Assembly: GCF_013816785.1 (NCBI RefSeq)
Contig: NZ_JACDDV010000008.1
Location: 1 to 51,401, forward strand
Source: Sphingomonas sp.
GTDB lineage: Bacteria; Pseudomonadota; Alphaproteobacteria; Sphingomonadales; Sphingomonadaceae
Reading direction: 5' to 3'
Length of the DNA stretch: 51,401 bases
The notes under the pieces are model-generated. The model was not told the origin of the DNA, did no database searches, and saw nothing but the letters and a program-made list of their open reading frames with translations. A program made the position numbers and the translations under genes. Positions 8,330-42,018 of the stretch are shown here, one piece after another (position 1 is the first letter of the stretch; every line of letters begins with the position of its first letter).

Positions 8330-10759
8330 ATGAATCGTCAAGTTCCGCGGTCCGAGTTTGGGACGACACGCCGGCAACTAGTCGCTGCCCTTCGACGCCT
8401 GCGTCGCGGCGACTTCACCGTCCGGCTGGACGAAGAATCGTCCGACGAGGACAATGAAATCGCCGTGCTGTTCAACGAGGTTGTCAGCCTCAACCAGCAG
8501 ATCACCGACGAATTCCAGCGGCTTTCGAAAGTGGTCGGCAAGGAAGGCAAGATCACCCATCGCGCCAAGGTGCGCGGCGCGACAGGCGGTTGGGATACCA
8601 AGCTGCGCGCGGTCAATGAACTCATCGACGACATGGTCCAGCCGACCACCGAAGTCGCGCGCGTGATCGGATCGGTCGCCAAGGGCGACTTGTCGCAGTC
8701 AATGGCAGTCGAAATCGAGGGCCGCGCGCTGAAGGGCGAATTCCTGCGCATCGGCAAGGTCGTCAACACGATGGTCGAGCAGCTCGCGTCGTTCACGTCG
8801 GAAGTCACCCGCGTGGCGCGAGAAGTCGGCACAGAAGGGAAGCTTGGCGGACAGGCCAATGTGAAGGGGGTCGCCGGCACTTGGAAGGATTTGACCGACA
8901 ACGTTAACCTGATGGCCGCCAACCTCACCGGCCAGGTACGCAACATCGCCGACGTGACGACCGCGGTGGCGCTCGGCGATTTGTCGAAGAAGATCACGGT
9001 CGACGTGAAGGGAGAAATTCTGGAACTGAAGAACACCATCAATACGATGGTCGATCAATTGAACGGGTTCGCGTCGGAAGTCACCCGCGTCGCCCGCGAA
9101 GTCGGCACCGAGGGCAAATTGGGCGGCCAGGCCCAGGTGCCGGGCGTCGCAGGCACCTGGGCCGATCTGACCGAGAACGTCAACTCGATGGCGGCGAACC
9201 TGACCGGCCAGGTCCGCAACATCGCCGAGGTTACCACCGCCGTCGCCTCGGGCGATCTGTCGAAGAAAATCACGGTCGACGTGAAGGGCGAAATTCTCGA
9301 ACTGAAGAACACCATTAACGTGATGGTCGATCAGTTGAACGGCTTCGCGTCGGAAGTGACCCGCGTGGCGCGCGAAGTTGGCACCGAAGGCAAGTTGGGC
9401 GGGCAGGCAAAGGTGCCGGGCGTCGGCGGGACGTGGAAAGATCTGACCGACAACGTCAATCTGATGGCGACCAACCTGACCAACCAGGTGCGCGGTATCG
9501 CCGACGTTGTCACCGCGGTTGCGCAAGGCAATCTGAAGCGCAAGCTGACGTTCGACGCCAAGGGCGAAATCGCCGCGCTGGCCGAGACGATCAACGGCAT
9601 GATCGAGACGCTGTCTACCTTCGGTGACCAGGTCACCAACATGGCCCGCGAGGTGGGCGTCGAAGGGCGCCTCGGCGGCCAGGCACGCGTCCCGGGCGCC
9701 GCTGGCCTGTGGCGAGACCTTACCGATAACGTTAACGCGATGGCTACAAATCTAACCAATCAGGTGCGTTCGATCGCCGATGTCGCAACCGCGGTGACCA
9801 AGGGCGATCTGACCCGCTCGATCTCGGTCGAGGCCTCCGGCGAAATGGCGGCGCTCAAGGACAATATCAATGAGATGATCCTCAACCTGAAGGATCAGAC
9901 GCTCAAGAACGCCGAGCAGGACTGGCTCAAGACCAATCTCGCCCGGTTCAGCCGCATGCTCCAGGGCGAGCGCGATCTTGCTACCATCTCCAACCTCATC
10001 ATGTCGGAACTCGCGCCGTTGGTGAACGCGCAGTACGGCGTGTTCTACGTCACCAACCGCGAAGAGGAAGAAACCAAGCTGGAGTTGGTCGCCAGTTACG
10101 GTGCCGACAGCCGCGAGGATCTGAAGAAGCAATTCGGCCTGCGCGAGGGCCTCATCGGCCAGGCAGCGGCCGACAAGCGCGCCATGCGCCTGACCAATGT
10201 GCCGGGCGACTTCATCAAGATCGGATCGGGCCTCGGCCAGGCCGCGCCGGCCAACATCAACATCCTGCCCGCTTTGTTCGAGGATGAGGTCAAGGCGGTG
10301 ATCGAGCTGGCGTCGTTCGAGGAGTTCAACGAGACTCACCACAGCTTCCTCAACCAGCTGATGGAAACCGTCGGCATCGTCCTGAACACCATCGCCGCGA
10401 CGATGCGGACCGAGGGGCTATTGAAACAGTCTCAGCTACTGACGCAGGAGCTGCAGGCACGGCAGACCGAACTCACCACGAAGCAGGAGGAGCTGCACAA
10501 CACCAATGAGGAACTGCAGGAAAAAGCGCAGCTGCTCGAGAATGAGAAGCGCCAGGTCGAAGCCAAGAATTTCGAGATCGACATGACCCGCCGGGCGATC
10601 GAGGAAAAGGCCGAGCAGCTCGCCCTGACATCGAAGTACAAGAGCGAATTCCTGGCCAACATGAGCCACGAATTGCGCACACCGCTGAATTCGCTGCTGA
10701 TCCTGTCGAAGCTTTTGGCTGACAATCAGCAGGGCAATTTGAACGGGAAGCAAACCTAG
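8330..10759 (+). CDS. HAMP-array hybrid histidine kinase, N-terminal part (ends at an in-frame TAG)
   Basis: This gene encodes a soluble sensor kinase of the multi-HAMP type, as in fungal group III osmosensors and their bacterial relatives; no membrane helix is visible. HAMP-type units occupy about residues 60-530, including four near-identical 92-residue repeats starting at residues 158, 250, 342 and 434. A GAF domain (about 545-690) and a long Gln/Glu-rich coiled coil (about 700-770) follow. The phosphoacceptor His780 sits in [13 protein letters not shown]. The frame then meets TAG at 10757-10759, but the same frame stays open afterwards and continues the dimerisation helix, ATPase and receiver domains to 12349. 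Without the stop the product would have 1339 residues. A TGGAGG lies upstream of the ATG. As read, this half has a phosphoacceptor but no ATP-binding domain. Confidence 0.88.
8801..9904 (+). repeat. Four tandem 276-bp coding repeats (HAMP units)
   Basis: The segment starting GAAGTCACC at 8801 recurs at 9077 and 9353, and in diverged form at 9629, exactly 276 bases (92 codons) apart. The second and third units are nearly identical at protein level ([18 protein letters not shown]). Such repeats can recombine, changing the number of HAMP modules, and can cause assembly errors. Confidence 0.9.
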
Positions 10760-10867
10760 TTCGCGCGCACCATCCACGGCGCCGGGACCGACCTGCTCAA
10801 TCTCATCAACGACATCCTGGATCTGTCCAAGGTCGAATCCGGGACCGTGTCGATCGAGGTCAGCGAA

Positions 10868-12349
10868 ATGCCGATGGCGGGATTGAAGCAGCATATGGAG
10901 CGGACCTTCCGCCAGCTCGCGTCGGAGAAGGATCTGGCGTTCGAGGTCGATTTCGCCGAGGAACTGCCGGTCGCCATCCGCACCGACGAAAAGCGGCTCC
11001 AGCAGGTCGTCCTCAACCTGCTATCCAACGCCTTCAAATTCACCTCGGACGGAGGCGTTACGTTGCGGGTGGGGCCGGCGAGAAGCGGGTGGAGCGCCAA
11101 TCACTCCTTCCTCAAGGAAGGTCAGGATGCCATCGAGATCGCGGTCAGCGACACCGGCATCGGCATTCCCGGCGACAAGCAGAAGCTGATCTTCGAGGCG
11201 TTCCAGCAGGCCGACGGCACGACCAGCCGCAAATATGGCGGCACCGGGCTTGGCCTGTCGATCAGCCGCGAAATCTCGCGCCTGCTAGGCGGCGAGCTTC
11301 AGGTCCGCTCGGTCCCCGGCGAGGGTTCGACCTTCACTCTCTACGTACCGGTGCAGCCGCCGGCCGGTCAGCTGAGCCTTGCCTCGCCGGCGGCCGCGCT
11401 GGTGGTGGACAGCGCGAGCGAGCTCGTCACGGCCAGCTATCCGCTGCCCGACGACCGCGATGACTTGAAGGGGCAGCCGTTCGTGCTGATCGTCGAGGAC
11501 GACCCCACCTTTGCCTCCATCCTGCTCGAACTGGCGCACGACGCGGGCCTCAAGGGCGTGATCTCCTCGGCCGGGTCGGCGACGGTCGCGCTGGTGCGCA
11601 AGCTGAAACCCGACGCGGTGACGCTCGACCTCGGGCTCAGCGACATCGACGGCTTCGTGCTGCTCGACCTGCTCCGCCACGACCCCGATACCGCCGGCAT
11701 TCCGGTCCACGTCATTTCGGGCGCCGAGCAGGCCAGCCACGCGCTCACCATCGGTGCCTCGGGGATCATCGAAAAGCCCGCTGACCGCGACGTGCTGGCC
11801 CAGCTGTTTACAGGCCTTGCGGAGGATGCGCGCACTCGCCGCAAGAAGGCCAAGTCGGGTGATCGCCGGCCGGCCGGGGCCGTGCCGCACGCGGTTGGCG
11901 ATCCCGACCGGCTGGCGGGACTCGCCGGCAGCCGCGTGCTGATCATCGACGATGATATCCGCAACATCTACTCACTGACCAGCGTGCTCGAGGCGCACGA
12001 TGTCCGCGTACTTCACGCCGAAAGCGGGGCGGAGGGCATCCGACTGCTCGAGACGACGCCGGGCATCGACCTAGCGCTGGTCGACATCATGATGCCCGAC
12101 ATGGACGGCTATGAGACGATGCGGCAGATACGAAGCAAACGGAGTATCGGCGCGATTCCGCTGGTAGCGGTCACCGCGAAGGCCATGAAGGGCGACCGGC
12201 AGAAATGCCTCGACGCCGGCGCCTCCGACTATATTTCGAAGCCGGTCGACGTCGATTTGCTGCTGGCGCTGATGCGCGTGTGGATCGGCCGCGCGCGCGG
12301 TGTCGCGCCGGCGGCCCGCCCACGGTGCAAATCAGGAAAGGCGGCCTGA
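10868..12349 (+). CDS. HAMP-array hybrid histidine kinase, C-terminal part (HATPase-REC-REC)
   Basis: This is the continuation, in the same frame, of the kinase gene interrupted at 10757. It carries the GHKL ATPase (N-box VVLNLLSNAFKF, G1 DTGIGIPG, G2 GTGLGLSISRE), a first receiver (VEDDPTF, phospho-Asp in LDLGL, ISGA, EKPAD) and a second, more canonical receiver (IIDDDIRN, VDIMMPDMDG, VAVTAKA, SKPVD). If it is translated separately, ATG 10868 is the best start: GAGGT lies seven bases upstream. GTG 10847 is an alternative. Translated alone, it would lack the phosphoacceptor helix. Its stop lies four bases before the next kinase gene, so both belong to one operon. It may be part of a pseudogene, a split kinase or the product of a base error. 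Confidence 0.82.
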   Translation: MPMAGLKQHMERTFRQLASEKDLAFEVDFAEELPVAIRTDEKRLQQVVLNLLSNAFKFTSDGGVTLRVGPARSGWSANHSFLKEGQDAIEIAVSDTGIGIPGDKQKLIFEAFQQADGTTSRKYGGTGLGLSISREISRLLGGELQVRSVPGEGSTFTLYVPVQPPAGQLSLASPAAALVVDSASELVTASYPLPDDRDDLKGQPFVLIVEDDPTFASILLELAHDAGLKGVISSAGSATVALVRKLKPDAVTLDLGLSDIDGFVLLDLLRHDPDTAGIPVHVISGAEQASHALTIGASGIIEKPADRDVLAQLFTGLAEDARTRRKKAKSGDRRPAGAVPHAVGDPDRLAGLAGSRVLIIDDDIRNIYSLTSVLEAHDVRVLHAESGAEGIRLLETTPGIDLALVDIMMPDMDGYETMRQIRSKRSIGAIPLVAVTAKAMKGDRQKCLDAGASDYISKPVDVDLLLALMRVWIGRARGVAPAARPRCKSGKAA

Positions 12350-12353
12350 GCCG

Positions 12354-14369
12354 ATGAATGACGCCCCGTCGGCGATGCGCGCCACCAAGCCGTCCAAGCC
12401 GCGCGTCCCGCGTGCCCGCATATTGCTGGTCGACGATGACGAGCGCAATTTGCTCGCCTTGTCCGAAGTGCTCCACGGCATCGCCGACATCGTCACCGCC
12501 GCCTCGGGCCGCGCGGCGCTGCGCCATTTGTTGAACGGCGATTTCGCGGTCATCCTGCTCGACGTATTCATGCCGGGCATCGACGGCTACGAGACCGCTC
12601 AGCTGATCCGCGAGCGTAAGAGCAACAGCCACATTCCAATCATCTTCCTGTCTGCGGTCAACAAGGAAACCGAACATCTGATGCGCGGCTATGCGATGGG
12701 CGCGGTCGATTATGTGTTCAAGCCGGTCGACCCGCTGATCCTGACATCGAAGGTCAGCGTGTTCGTCGACCTCTACAAGATGCGCGCGCAGTTCGAGGCC
12801 AAGAGCCGGGCCGAACAAGCGCTGCGCGACGCCAATTTCAAGGCTGAGCTGGAAAAGCTGCAAATCGAGCGTGAGCTTCAGGCGAGCCGCATGCGCCAGG
12901 CGGCGATCATCCAGTCGCTGCCGATCATCCTCTACCTCGAGCCGCATCAGACGGAGCCGCGCTGTCCGGCCTTCGTCAGCGGCGACCTGGAGGCGATGAC
13001 AGGCTTCAGCTTCGACGCCGTGCGGGCCGACCCCGAGCTGTGGCAACAGCGCATCCACCCAGAAGATCGCGAGCGGGTGCTGACCTCGATTGCCGACCGC
13101 AATTCGACCGGGCAGCTGTCGATCGAGTATCGCTGGCAATGCGCCGACGGCACCTACAGGCATTTCCACGACCAGGCGGTTCTGCTCCGCGGACCGGCGG
13201 GCGAACCTATCGAATTTGCTGGCACATTGCTTGACGTCACGACCCAACGGGAGCTCGAATCACAGCTGGTGCAAGCCGGCAAGATGGACGCGATCGGTCA
13301 GCTGACTGGCGGCATCGCGCACGACTTCAACAATTTATTGTCGGCGGTACTTGGCGGAATCCTCCTGCTCGACAGACGTCTCGAGCTCGGCGATCGCGAG
13401 CGGCAGATCATGCAACAGATGCGCCATGCCGCCGAGCAGGGGGCGGAGCTGGTGAGGCGGATGATGGCCTTCGCGCGCAAGCAGGATTTGCGCCCGTCCA
13501 GCGTCGATCCCAACAGCCTGTGTCAGTCGGTCGCGGGCCTGGTCGAGCATACGCTGGGCGGGACGGTGACCATCCACTGGAACTGCGTCGAAACCTCGCG
13601 CAACCTGTTTGTCGACCGATCCCAACTTGAGCTCGCGCTGGTCAATCTGATCCTCAATGCACGCGACGCCATGCCAGATGGTGGCAAAGTCGGCGTGACG
13701 ATCGACGAGGCGCCGGCTTTCGACGCAGGCGCCGATCCGTTCGTGCGGATCTGCGTCGCCGACCAGGGCCACGGCATCGCGCCCGAAATGCTCGGTAAAA
13801 TCATGGAGCCGTTTTTTACGACCAAGGAAGCCGGCAAGGGTACCGGGCTGGGTCTCTCCATGGTGCTCGGCTTCGTCCAGCAATCCGGCGGAATGCTCGA
13901 AGTCAGCAGCGTCCCCGGCGAGGGATCGAGCGTCCAGATATTGCTCCCGTCCACCGCGCAGAGCGCGGAGCGCGTAGCGCCGGACGACGCGGATCAGGAA
14001 CGCGAAACGCTGTCGCTCAACACGGTGCTGCTGGTCGATGACGATGACGCGGTGCGTACCGTGGTCGGCGAGCAATTGCGCGAATTGGGCCTGACCGTTC
14101 GTTCGGTCGAAAGCGGGCAACAGGCGCTCGAGTTGCTCAAACGGGAAGGGGGCGAATTTGACCTTATCTTGTCTGACTTCGCGATGCCGGGAATGAACGG
14201 GGTCGAGACGATCAGCCAGGTCCGTAAGCTCAGGCCCAACATCCGAGCGGTGCTGATGACCGGATATGCTGACGACCGTGATTTCGTAGCCGAGCGCGGT
14301 TCGATCCTGACGCTGCGCAAGCCGATCGACACACTCGACCTCGAACGCAAGCTGGCCCGCGCCGCCTAG
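12354..14369 (+). CDS. Hybrid histidine kinase REC-PAS-HisKA-HATPase-REC
   Basis: This is a soluble 671-residue signalling protein. The N-terminal receiver (about 20-140) has acidic DDD 27-29, phospho-Asp70 in LLDVFMPG and Lys123. A short coiled coil (140-185) and a PAS fold (about 190-305, with HPEDRERV and the YRW...DGTYRHFHD signature) follow. The kinase core has His323 in GGIAHDFNNLL, the N-box NLILNARDAM, the G boxes ADQGHGI and GTGLGLSM, and the FFTTK motif. The C-terminal receiver (about 556-670) has phospho-Asp608 in LSDFAMPG. I chose ATG 12354, four bases after the preceding stop and behind an AGGAAAGG stretch. The two receivers suggest that it takes phosphate from another kinase, plausibly the HAMP-array protein encoded just upstream. 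Confidence 0.92.
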   Translation: MNDAPSAMRATKPSKPRVPRARILLVDDDERNLLALSEVLHGIADIVTAASGRAALRHLLNGDFAVILLDVFMPGIDGYETAQLIRERKSNSHIPIIFLSAVNKETEHLMRGYAMGAVDYVFKPVDPLILTSKVSVFVDLYKMRAQFEAKSRAEQALRDANFKAELEKLQIERELQASRMRQAAIIQSLPIILYLEPHQTEPRCPAFVSGDLEAMTGFSFDAVRADPELWQQRIHPEDRERVLTSIADRNSTGQLSIEYRWQCADGTYRHFHDQAVLLRGPAGEPIEFAGTLLDVTTQRELESQLVQAGKMDAIGQLTGGIAHDFNNLLSAVLGGILLLDRRLELGDRERQIMQQMRHAAEQGAELVRRMMAFARKQDLRPSSVDPNSLCQSVAGLVEHTLGGTVTIHWNCVETSRNLFVDRSQLELALVNLILNARDAMPDGGKVGVTIDEAPAFDAGADPFVRICVADQGHGIAPEMLGKIMEPFFTTKEAGKGTGLGLSMVLGFVQQSGGMLEVSSVPGEGSSVQILLPSTAQSAERVAPDDADQERETLSLNTVLLVDDDDAVRTVVGEQLRELGLTVRSVESGQQALELLKREGGEFDLILSDFAMPGMNGVETISQVRKLRPNIRAVLMTGYADDRDFVAERGSILTLRKPIDTLDLERKLARAA

Positions 14370-22876: not shown

Positions 22877-24634
22877 TCAGGCGACGGGGGATGCAGATTG
22901 AGACAAGCTTTTAACAACTGCTATGAGATAAGGGTCAAACTCATCGGCGCGCATCTCTTTACAAACAGCCATAGCGCCAAACGAAACACCATAATCGTTC
23001 TTCGATTGTTCGGAGAGTTTCGCCAGAAGACGCTTTCCTGAAACGACGTTACGAGCTCCACGAGCATTTACCATTCCCCGGAATATTTTTCCCGCCTTTT
23101 TATGAACAGTTGAATGAGCATCACTCTTGCAGATCTGATGTAGGCGATCAGCTATCGTACCAACACTCTCTTCCGTAAGTCTCTCACAGGCTTCGGTAAT
23201 GAGTTGCTCCACTTCGTCTGCCGTGACCTCGATTTTGCCGCGACGAGAAATGAGCCGAGCCACCGCGTCAGAATGAACGAAGTAGTTTTCTACCTCTTTC
23301 CTGTCCCAGATCGAAAGAGTGAGTCCAAATTTTACAGCATCGTCATGGAGTTTCTTCATCTCAGTGTCGGATCGAAAATCCCTGTCGACCACAAGGTGCA
23401 CGGGCATCGTGCTCTCGCTGGCCACAGAGATTACCTTCGCTGCGCCTATAGCCTGGTGCCAATTATTGACTCCATTTAGCTGAAAAGACGGAACAGCTAT
23501 AAAGCGATCATAACAACTAACGCTAATCTTGATCGCCACTTCAGAGAGAAATTTCTGGTCATCACCTTCAAAAACGGCAGCCTTGCGGGCAGATGCCAAT
23601 TTACTGAGCTGAATATTATGGCGACTACCGAGGCTGTCGATTACGCTCTGCAATTTTGAATGGGTAAGAGGGCGCCAAGAACGCTTCTCCCTTTTTCTCA
23701 CCACACATATTGTTTCAGCAGGCGTATCCGAAATGATTTCCGACGAATGCGTGGCAACAATCGTCTGCCGGTACTTCCTTAGGCCGAGAACCTTTATGAG
23801 TTTCCTTTGCATGTCAGCATGGAGAAAAATGTCGGGTTCATCAAGCACGATGACGCCATTGCTTGGAGCGCGGCAGAGGAACCAGAGTATCTGCATCCAC
23901 GCCTGCAATCCGCCGCCAACAAAGGCTATTTCGTTGGAGTTCGGACCGTCTCTAACGATTAAAGACAACTCCTCACCCACGCTTCCACTGACCCCATCGA
24001 ATGCAACAATCGATACGCCGGGCCACGTTTCGTCTAATAATTTTTTCCACTGCACATATTCCGGGACGCGTTCGCCAAGTTGATTACGAAAATGCCGAGC
24101 GGAGAGCCGACCGAACATAAATTCGTGAACCCTGGCCTTTGAAATCTTCTTTTCATGTCCATGGAACGTTTCAATTGGCGGCATCACGTAAATTGACGGG
24201 ACTTGGAGATGACTTACAGCGGCGTGGTTCGTCACCAGCCCGCCATCCGAATGATACATTTGAGCAAAACTCTCGGATCGAGACTCTCGAAGCCAAACAC
24301 GTGCCTGGACACCGTTATCATACGTAAGGGTGAGCCGTGCGGGATCTGCACGATCGTGGTTGTATTGCAGATTAGTAAAGTCAAAGTCGATGGTGTCAAA
24401 TAGTAAGCGGTAGCCGACCCCGATTACTTGTGCATCGAGCCAGTCAGGCGTTGCATCGTAGCGGGCCATTCCGGCACGTCGTACGGCAATCGCCAGGATT
24501 CGCAGAGCGTCAATCAGGGTGCTCTTGCCTGCATTGTTCTGGCCAACCAGCACGGTAGTAGGAAGAAGCGATACCGTGTGATCGCGAAAGCCGCGAAAAT
24601 TTTCTAGGCGAACACTTTCGACCCGCGCGTCCAT
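22877..24634 (-). CDS. OLD-like ATPase with C-terminal TOPRIM domain (candidate defence gene)
   Basis: This 585-residue protein couples an SMC/ABC-type ATPase to a TOPRIM nuclease-like domain, the architecture of OLD-family (overcoming lysogenisation defect) proteins. The Walker A is GQNNAGKST (31-39), the signature region VGGGLQAW (239-246), the Walker B VIVLDEPD (261-268) and the H-loop THSSEI (295-300). The TOPRIM part has Glu356 in VFEGDDQ, the Asp pair 417/419 in VVDRDF, and WDRKEVENYF (443-452). The GC content in sampled lines is 42-52%, against 58-65% in neighbours, which points to horizontal acquisition. It stands alone between the SNase gene and nrdB, with no helicase or integrase beside it. 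Phage defence is inferred from the family. Confidence 0.85.
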   Translation of the reverse strand: MDARVESVRLENFRGFRDHTVSLLPTTVLVGQNNAGKSTLIDALRILAIAVRRAGMARYDATPDWLDAQVIGVGYRLLFDTIDFDFTNLQYNHDRADPARLTLTYDNGVQARVWLRESRSESFAQMYHSDGGLVTNHAAVSHLQVPSIYVMPPIETFHGHEKKISKARVHEFMFGRLSARHFRNQLGERVPEYVQWKKLLDETWPGVSIVAFDGVSGSVGEELSLIVRDGPNSNEIAFVGGGLQAWMQILWFLCRAPSNGVIVLDEPDIFLHADMQRKLIKVLGLRKYRQTIVATHSSEIISDTPAETICVVRKREKRSWRPLTHSKLQSVIDSLGSRHNIQLSKLASARKAAVFEGDDQKFLSEVAIKISVSCYDRFIAVPSFQLNGVNNWHQAIGAAKVISVASESTMPVHLVVDRDFRSDTEMKKLHDDAVKFGLTLSIWDRKEVENYFVHSDAVARLISRRGKIEVTADEVEQLITEACERLTEESVGTIADRLHQICKSDAHSTVHKKAGKIFRGMVNARGARNVVSGKRLLAKLSEQSKNDYGVSFGAMAVCKEMRADEFDPYLIAVVKSLSQSASPVA

Positions 24635-39908: not shown

Positions 39909-41753
39909 CTAAAACCCCATGCGTAGTCCGACGTGGGCCGAGGTTTCCTCGCCCTGGTCCTTGCCGACGGTGGCCGACCCGGCGACGTCGAGGCTTACGC
40001 CTGTCAGGATCGCCGCGCTAAAGCCGGCCGAGAAGCGCCCATAGGCCTTCTTCGACGCATCATCGAAGGCGAAGTGGTTGACGATCGTCGGCGCCGAGGT
40101 CTGGGCGAAGCGAACGGTGCGCCCGGCGCCGGTGAAGTCCTTTTCAATCACCGCCGCGGCATAGGGCCGCAACTGCACCCCGCCGCCGCCGAAGTCACCG
40201 CGCAGTTCGACGCCCGCGCTCCCGCGCAAAGAGGAATAGGACAGCGAGGAGACGTTGAGGGTCAGCGCCGCGTCGCCGCTTTCGGTATATCCATTGACCT
40301 TGGCCTTGGCATAGTCGAGCCCGACCACTGGCCCGACCCGGAGTGTTCCGAGGGGGATGAGGTAGCCCGCCTTGGCGCCGGCCAGCGTGTGGCGGCCCTT
40401 GGGATTGGCCTCCATGTCCTGAACCACTCCGGTGCGCTCGATCTCGTGCTTGTCCTTGCCATAGCCCGCATAAGCCTGGGCGAAAATTCCGGCCAAGCCG
40501 AAGCCGGCGTAACCGCCGATCTGGACCGAGCGTCCGTCGATGTCGGCCGCGTCGCTACTGAAACTCGCCCTTGGTTTCGAATAGTTTGCGGCGAGCCCGA
40601 TCACGCCCGACCCGAAGCCATATTCGAGGCCCGCCGTGCCGCCGACGCTCGTCGCGCGGTAGGAGACATTGCGATCGCCGGCGCCCTGACGGCGGGTGAC
40701 CGTGTCGCCGACGACGAACGCGTGCAGCCCCTCGGGCATGTCGCCGTCGCGCGGGCTGCCGAGGTCCATCCGCGTCGTCAGGGTTCGGCCAAACTGGCGC
40801 GCGACGTCCAGGCCGAGGTCGGACGAAGCCTGAAGGGTCAGCGGCGCGGTCAGTTGCGCGTCGATGTAGCGCGCGACGATCGCGAATCCCGCCGAGGACA
40901 GGTGAACGCCGTCGACATAGAAGAGATATTGGCCGTTGAACGCGGCGTCCGTTACGCACTGAGTCGCTTGCGCCGCCGGGCACGCCCCGCCGCTGGTCAG
41001 GCCATAGGCGGTGGGGTTGGCGATGATATTGTCGCCCACGCGATTGAGGTCGAGATAGTGGACGATCACGCCGTTGCTGGCATAGCCGGCCAGCACCGGC
41101 TGAATCCCGCTGTTGAAGGCGGTCGCATAGGCCGATCCGATCGGTGCCCGCGGGTCGCCGGTCACTTCGGGCAGGCGGCCGACATCGCCGGCGAGGAAGC
41201 TGATGTTGCGAGCGCCCGCTCCGACCAGCGCATCGAGCCCGACCTTGGCTTCGGCGACGCTGATCGTAGCGCGCGGCCCAGCCCCGGCGACCGTCGCACC
41301 GGCAAGCTTTTCATAATAGCGCGCGTCGTTGCCTCCGATCGAGATGGCGAGCAGGTCGTTGGGGCCGAAGCGGCCGCTGACGCGCGGGAACGCTGCCGGG
41401 CCGCCGCCGGCGAGGAAGCTTTGATATTCGGTCGGGAAGCCGGGGATACCCGGGCCGTTGATGTTGAAGAAGCCGGTGTTGCCGGGGCCGGTGAAGGCTC
41501 CGCCGATGGCGAAATTGTCGATCGGAACGCCAAGGATCTGACCGAGGGTGTCGATGTAGTTCGACCCGCCCGAGAAGCGACCCGTGCCGTAGGCGGAGGG
41601 CGGCGCGATACCCAGCAGCTGGAATAGATTGCCGTCGTCGGCATAGCTATCGCCGAATGCGACGATGCGGTCGATACGCTGGGCGTGGGCTGGCGCGGCC
41701 AAGGTCAAGGCGCTGGTGGCAAGCAGCGACGCGGCGAACAGGCTCTTGGTCAT
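39909..41753 (-). CDS. Autotransporter GDSL-family esterase
   Basis: This is a secreted lipase/esterase with its own outer-membrane translocator. The 614-residue protein starts at ATG 41753, preceded by GGGGGGAA. The signal peptide ends in APAHAQ (about 25). The SGNH passenger (about 28-320) has the nucleophile Ser36 in FGDSYADDG, the GGND block and the DGVHLS catalytic Asp/His motif. The autotransporter beta-barrel (about 345-614) ends with the typical aromatic residue in GLRMGF. Substrates are probably short-chain acyl esters or phospholipids at the cell surface; this is inferred from the family. The gene is monocistronic. Confidence 0.94.
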   Translation of the reverse strand: MTKSLFAASLLATSALTLAAPAHAQRIDRIVAFGDSYADDGNLFQLLGIAPPSAYGTGRFSGGSNYIDTLGQILGVPIDNFAIGGAFTGPGNTGFFNINGPGIPGFPTEYQSFLAGGGPAAFPRVSGRFGPNDLLAISIGGNDARYYEKLAGATVAGAGPRATISVAEAKVGLDALVGAGARNISFLAGDVGRLPEVTGDPRAPIGSAYATAFNSGIQPVLAGYASNGVIVHYLDLNRVGDNIIANPTAYGLTSGGACPAAQATQCVTDAAFNGQYLFYVDGVHLSSAGFAIVARYIDAQLTAPLTLQASSDLGLDVARQFGRTLTTRMDLGSPRDGDMPEGLHAFVVGDTVTRRQGAGDRNVSYRATSVGGTAGLEYGFGSGVIGLAANYSKPRASFSSDAADIDGRSVQIGGYAGFGLAGIFAQAYAGYGKDKHEIERTGVVQDMEANPKGRHTLAGAKAGYLIPLGTLRVGPVVGLDYAKAKVNGYTESGDAALTLNVSSLSYSSLRGSAGVELRGDFGGGGVQLRPYAAAVIEKDFTGAGRTVRFAQTSAPTIVNHFAFDDASKKAYGRFSAGFSAAILTGVSLDVAGSATVGKDQGEETSAHVGLRMGF

Positions 41754-42018
41754 GAGAAATTCCCCCCGGCCGCGTCGGAACGCGCGGCGCGTAACAGCGT
41801 CAACATGCCGTCCCGGCGGTTTCAAGACAAGTGCCGCCAATGCAACAGCTTACGTTACGGAATGCAGGAAAATGCTATTCGCTAGGAATGAATTGTGGAT
41901 GATCTAATCCAATTTCTCGGCCCCGGCACGCAGGGGCAGTTGACAGCCCTGGTTGGAATGACTGTCCTATCTATAACCTGATAGGTTATGTATCCCGCGA
42001 CTCGACGGGAGGATAAGC
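41754..42018. other. Intergenic region upstream of the lysis pair
   Basis: The 265-base spacer separates two divergent genes. Besides the palindrome at 41975-41992 and a strong GGGAGGA ribosome site before the endolysin ATG, I see no gene in it. It must contain promoters in both directions; it is distinctly AT-richer from about 41850 onwards. Confidence 0.5.
41975..41992. promoter_or_regulatory. Palindromic motif upstream of the endolysin gene
   Basis: The 17-base core ATAACCT-GAT-AGGTTAT (41973-41989) is a perfect palindrome with 7-bp arms. The 18-mer 41975-41992 matches 15 of 18 bases of 21132-21149 upstream of the HTH gene. It ends 26 bases before the endolysin start, so it would overlap or lie next to the promoter. 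Confidence 0.5.

Follow-up and report, generated by a model that had tools for sequence, protein, structure and literature searches.

The locus described here raises the question why a long and otherwise open sensor kinase frame is closed by one stop codon in its middle. It lies in a Sphingomonas sp. draft genome (assembly GCF_013816785.1) of 2.28 Mb in 95 contigs with a completeness of 99.95%, on contig NZ_JACDDV010000008.1, the whole of which (51,401 nucleotides, nt) was analysed and is called the window below. The gene at 8330–12349 on the plus strand is that of a hybrid histidine kinase with a tandem array of HAMP domains (poly-HAMP), and it is best explained as a recent null allele, i.e. 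a young pseudogene, of an accessory kinase of this kind. The probability given to this reading is about 0.68. The event would be an ordinary one of little importance, a further recent nonsense allele among accessory signalling genes, and nothing was seen that would point to a new kind of system.

The interrupted frame and its products

Translation of the frame 8330–12349 yielded 809 amino acids (aa), a stop, 529 aa and a second stop. The only break is the TAG at 10757–10759 (+), situated 30 codons downstream of the phosphoacceptor histidine of the H-box, and the translation confirmed what a preliminary description of the sequence had reported of both the frame and the stop. The 5' part of the gene (8330–10759, +) includes Pfam matches to HAMP in four stretches, to HAMP_2 in five stretches, to GAF_2 (9968–10384, +; residues 547–685) and to the first half of HisKA (10640–10729, +). 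The 3' part (10760–12349, +, ending with TGA) includes the rest of the HisKA region, HATPase_c (10982–11356, +) and two receiver domains (Response_reg; 11483–11803 and 11936–12271, +). The truncated HisKA match contains the H-box and covers only positions 2–35 of the 66 positions of the model, while an intact same-genus orthologue, G032, matches positions 2–66. The motifs on both sides of the stop had been described as intact, and the domain matches are indeed strong on both sides, with HisKA alone cut.

Judged by these matches, the gene codes for a poly-HAMP/GAF/HisKA/HATPase/two-receiver hybrid kinase of the Nik1-like kind. As in group III-like poly-HAMP kinases, tandem HAMP repeats (four 276-nt units) precede the kinase core, and two C-terminal receivers are present, yet downstream of the stop; HisKA and HATPase_c are not found in one polypeptide, since the TAG lies between them. 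The frame is open across this place in all 28 aligned relatives, in one of which, G032, both HisKA and HATPase_c were scanned. Among the NCBIfam models shown, none was reached at its cut-off.

In an intact copy the HAMP array and GAF domain would form the input, the HisKA dimer and the ATPase the core, and the two receivers the output, and the domain order suggests that the phosphoryl groups are probably passed on to partner proteins, of which the product of the next gene may be one. A single G-to-T change probably made the nonsense codon in this dispensable and probably cytoplasmic kinase. Translation from 8330 would then end after 809 aa, giving a HAMP-GAF protein with half of HisKA and without ATPase or receivers. 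Because this truncated product could presumably neither autophosphorylate nor relay a phosphoryl group, the gene is regarded as a recent null allele. A product started from the ATG at 10868 would have the ATPase and the receivers without HisKA, and kinase activity is expected of neither product. We infer that the organism really carries this base, that the kinase has lost its function as a consequence and that the allele is fixed.

The stop position in relatives and the age of the change

The genus sample consisted of 71 same-genus genomes, the genome of the window included, of which 53 were of good quality. The stop position was read in 35 other same-genus genomes (29 in one set, and additionally G017, G033, G046, G048, G062 and G035), and a sense codon was found in all 35. 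For the codon alignment 30 loci were fetched and 28 used, and these included 18 GAG, nine GAA and one GAC codon at the position. The five copies nearest over the second half of the gene (G032, G012, G010, G041 and G014) all have GAG. The preliminary description had proposed a change from GAG to TAG and a comparison of the codon in close relatives; the nearest copies bear out the change, and the codon is sense in every copy examined. Two loci, L172 (G013) and L164 (G035), were omitted from the alignment, as their kinase frames are broken elsewhere in the gene, seemingly by frameshifts. Both come from genomes of lower completeness, and both have glutamate (E) at the stop position.

A wider sample, in which the best 80 loci from other genera and phyla were kept, included 83 copies with the position read at a fixed offset from the H-box. 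No stop was present in any of the 83 (70 E, 5 D, 5 K, 1 R, 1 G and 1 Q). The TAG is private to the window copy among the copies examined, and an in-frame stop in a conserved region without a counterpart in the orthologues is what characterizes a pseudogene. Chance adjacency of two open reading frames was also considered and rejected, the 28 codon-aligned relatives (chosen for unbroken frames) all reading through the place with a sense codon.

The 5' half was matched at E-values up to 1e-60 in 39 of the 71 same-genus genomes and in 31 of the 53 good-quality ones (own genome included in both), and none of the same-genus matches listed for this half had a stop inside. With a strict cut-off, a close 3' half was present in nine of the 199 sampled family genomes, again including the own genome. 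By this distribution the kinase gene is patchy in the genus, accessory and dispensable. Homologous DNA was present in 420 records of a plasmid search. The record with the best coverage (Novosphingobium) was 79% identical, and in three records the short-listed best place had 95–99% identity.

A GAGGT seven bases upstream of an ATG at 10868 had been pointed out in the preliminary description as a site from which the second half could be made on its own. Both the GAGGT (10856–10860) and the ATG are present as described (10856–10870, +). In a true split, re-initiation at this ATG, or at the GTG at 10847, would produce an ATPase-receiver protein cooperating with a separate phosphoacceptor protein. 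The five nearest relatives do not have the GAGG-like site, which the lineage of the window may therefore have gained, and the second open reading frame keeps the conserved columns. However, known kinases build the second helix of their dimerisation bundle from the second half of HisKA, a part that both proteins would lack, and among the other copies examined none is interrupted by a stop here. The GAGG-like site corresponds to Glu-Val codons in 16 of the 28 unsplit relatives, and a split is not needed to explain it; also the ATG is present at the internal-start position in 24 of the 28. The site is probably no dedicated start, and a dedicated internal start conserved as such was not found. A functional split was therefore rejected, mainly for the lack of a whole HisKA in either product and also for the ordinary coding nature of the site, and we regard it as very improbable.

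Readthrough of the stop, yielding some full-length kinase, would suit a single stop in an otherwise constrained frame. Against it, no UAG-reading (amber-suppressor) tRNA was among the 40 tRNAs found in the genome over the Rfam cut-off, a set that is incomplete in having no tRNA-Ile, and a 41st match, below the cut-off, was no tRNA according to ARAGORN. Neither is the stop conserved in any copy examined. Programmed readthrough would be recognized by a suppressor tRNA or a conserved stop, and with neither found (the former within the incomplete tRNA set) this explanation was rejected and is given only a slight chance.

If the gene is a pseudogene, it is a young one. In relative-rate counts with four outgroups, the amino-acid changes after the stop in the window copy and in G032 were 40:35, 33:35, 38:30 and 28:29, and those before the stop 8:10, 7:7, 8:5 and 3:12. 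When the window copy was compared with G012, the changes after the stop were 68:16, 46:24, 57:26 and 34:22. The intact G032 shows the same excess against G012 (66:19, 45:22, 51:27 and 30:17), so that G012 looks slow rather than the window copy fast. As there is no clear excess of amino-acid change after the stop in comparison to G032, the stop is either recent or an error. The pairwise ratios of nonsynonymous to synonymous change (dN/dS) after the stop were 0.19–0.26 for the five pairs including the window copy and 0.09–0.22 for the ten other pairs of the clade, the highest being that of the window copy and G032 (0.258). The higher values of the window copy may be a weak hint of relaxation, which the G032 counts do not bear out. 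The window copy departs at five of 419 columns that are invariant in all other copies; for the 28 intact relatives the corresponding number lies between 0 and 8.

The G032 counts alone give a rough bound of at most about 6% of the lineage since the split from G032 for neutral evolution, an order-of-magnitude figure that uses high Nei-Gojobori distances and four non-independent comparisons. An old pseudogene was rejected on this rough estimate. Of the three possibilities left by the preliminary description, a recent event and an error are both favoured by the constraint largely kept past the stop, and a true split is disfavoured by the halved HisKA and by the absence of a stop there in any relative examined.

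The four-unit HAMP array and the draft assembly

The main rival to a recent null allele is an artefact: the kinase would be intact in the living organism, and the TAG would have arisen as an error of the consensus, possibly along with a collapse of the HAMP array in the contig. We consider this unlikely, while giving it appreciable weight. The largely unchanged selective constraint past the stop fits an error, and the genome is a draft of many contigs. Furthermore, among the 13 other same-genus genomes that have at least 60 contigs and hold part of the gene, it is cut by a contig end in 11 (G037, G042, G043, G044, G047, G054, G055, G056, G060, G064 and G065) and complete in two (G046 and G048), whereas contig density alone, calculated with rounded sizes, would give about 5 to 7 of 13. 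Because the breaks exceed this expectation, the locus seems to assemble badly. In six of the 11 genomes (G043, G044, G054, G055, G056 and G060) the contig ends within the HAMP array.

The array of the window copy includes four 276-nt (92-aa) HAMP repeat units (8786–9889, +, in the register used in the scripts). Unbroken arrays were present in 29 of the 30 fetched relative loci, and all 29 have nine 92-aa units in register; in 28 the motifs gave this count, and in L146 one motif is altered. Among the other complete arrays of the genus (L143–L171 and L185), nine units were found in 29 of 30 and eight in one (the draft G064), against four in the window copy. Units 1, 3 and 4 of the window copy match units 1, 8 and 9 of the relatives, and unit 2 is like one of units 2–7 or a mosaic. 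A single in-frame loss of five units (1380 nt) with its junction before about 9454 would explain the four-unit array. The fit of this junction was nearly flat up to about 9437–9454, starting at about 8865 with all 29 relatives and at 9278 with the five nearest.

In the main copies of the 80 loci of the wider sample between 3 and 14 motifs were counted, with 9 in most alphaproteobacteria; three extra copies have no motifs. Altered motifs escape these counts, and the 5' end of several loci is open. As the counts vary this widely in other loci, the length of the array changes in evolution. Among the same-genus and family genomes examined, the arrays departing from nine units were all in drafts, namely those of G000 (4), G064 (8) and G251 (7 in frame), which also speaks for an artefact. 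In the family draft genome G251 (L193, C87) seven units are in the long frame and one in another frame, which suggests a misassembly or a frameshift in the array. The contraction of the window array is a second change private to this copy, either a second lesion or a collapse in the draft assembly.

Several observations speak against an artefact. The TAG is in non-repeated sequence, about 1.3 kb downstream of the last place where the array junction is likely to be (about 9454). Between units five apart, no exact in-register repeat of the 29 relatives exceeds 56 nt, which is short for a collapse at the usual long k, and exact repeats within the window array do not exceed 20 nt. The noisy-looking relatives G013 and G035 (86% and 90% complete) seem to be broken by frameshifts and not by substitutions. 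Domain matches across the genome had no inside stop in 22 HATPase_c, 30 ABC_tran, 18 TonB-barrel and 29 Response_reg matches, although these four scans include matches below the cut-off and those of the gene itself, and are blind to stops between domains, such as the present TAG. Together with the completeness of the genome they give no sign of a noisy consensus, and a generally error-rich assembly was rejected as having no support from them, within the same limit. Bacterial genomes often contain nonsense pseudogenes, and assembled contigs seldom contain substitution errors. The weights given to the null allele and its rivals come partly from such general knowledge of the two frequencies.

Some points weigh against a null allele. 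An error in the base is a real chance, as the allele is known from one assembled consensus of the species. There is no decay beyond the shorter array, and the invariant columns do not distinguish an error from a very young allele. Also the suppressor test was not exhaustive, because of the tRNA-Ile missing from the tRNA set.

Both private changes could be real and connected: a loss of five HAMP units would have deregulated the kinase, and the nonsense codon would then have been selected as a suppressor of the harmful kinase. In yeast, Candida Nik1 without all its HAMP domains signals unstimulated and halts growth unless the phosphoacceptor histidine is replaced or the downstream pathway removed (PMC3848655). 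We find this sequence of two events a remote prospect. If it were true, the two changes would be a possible natural example of the Nik1 effect, and if the five-unit loss is real, the pair would make a natural test of how the length of a HAMP array controls kinase output. As drafts seem to break or shorten large poly-HAMP genes, unit counts taken from them need to be treated with care.

Related kinases and other genes of the window

The closest known system is that of G032 (L143), whose 1797-aa frame has the same domain order as the window copy. It differs in being uninterrupted, with GAG at the stop position, and in having nine HAMP units instead of four. Downstream of the interrupted kinase, the window has an intact gene with the order REC-PAS_3-HisKA-HATPase_c-REC, REC denoting a receiver (12354–14369, +; Pfam). 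In G032 a match 66% identical to this gene begins 4 nt after the stop of the kinase, as in the window. Of the 30 relative loci, 29 have a match to the downstream gene after the kinase, a partial one in L150, L158, L170 and L171, and L172 has none.

Among solved structures, the window HAMP array is closest to the histidine kinase 9trk/9trj (PDB, fused to Gcn4p), with which it aligns over 279 residues (E 3.5e-115), a match of sequence only. The core of G032 matched known kinases such as 2c2a and 3dge in the PDB search. Among bacteria, Myxococcus AskA and AskB and Sorangium Amb07 are described as group III-like poly-HAMP hybrid kinases (PMC7643160). They resemble the window gene in having a poly-HAMP N-terminus, a histidine kinase domain and receivers, and no transmembrane regions are reported in them. 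AskA and AskB, here likened to the window gene by description only, differ from it in being working genes with a role in the ambruticin response (PMC7643160). In the fungal Nik1/Bos1 group III kinases, HisKA, HATPase and a receiver are preceded by five to six HAMP repeats (PMC3418262, PMC3848655). Unlike the window gene, these kinases are eukaryotic and intact. To our knowledge, they also lack the GAF domain and the second receiver. When the literature was searched for histidine kinases that premature stops had split, truncated or made into pseudogenes, the one paper that came up dealt with vancomycin resistance in Staphylococcus.

Two other genes of the window, both on the minus strand, were recorded. 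The gene at 22877–24634 codes for an AAA_15/AAA_21 ATPase with partial matches to the OLD, AriA, PtuA and GajA models. It is situated in the kilobase of the lowest G+C content in the window (0.49 at 23001–24000), adjoins a gene for the small chain of ribonucleotide reductase, and is possibly an acquired defence gene. The other, at 39909–41840, codes for a GDSL lipase fused to an autotransporter beta-domain.

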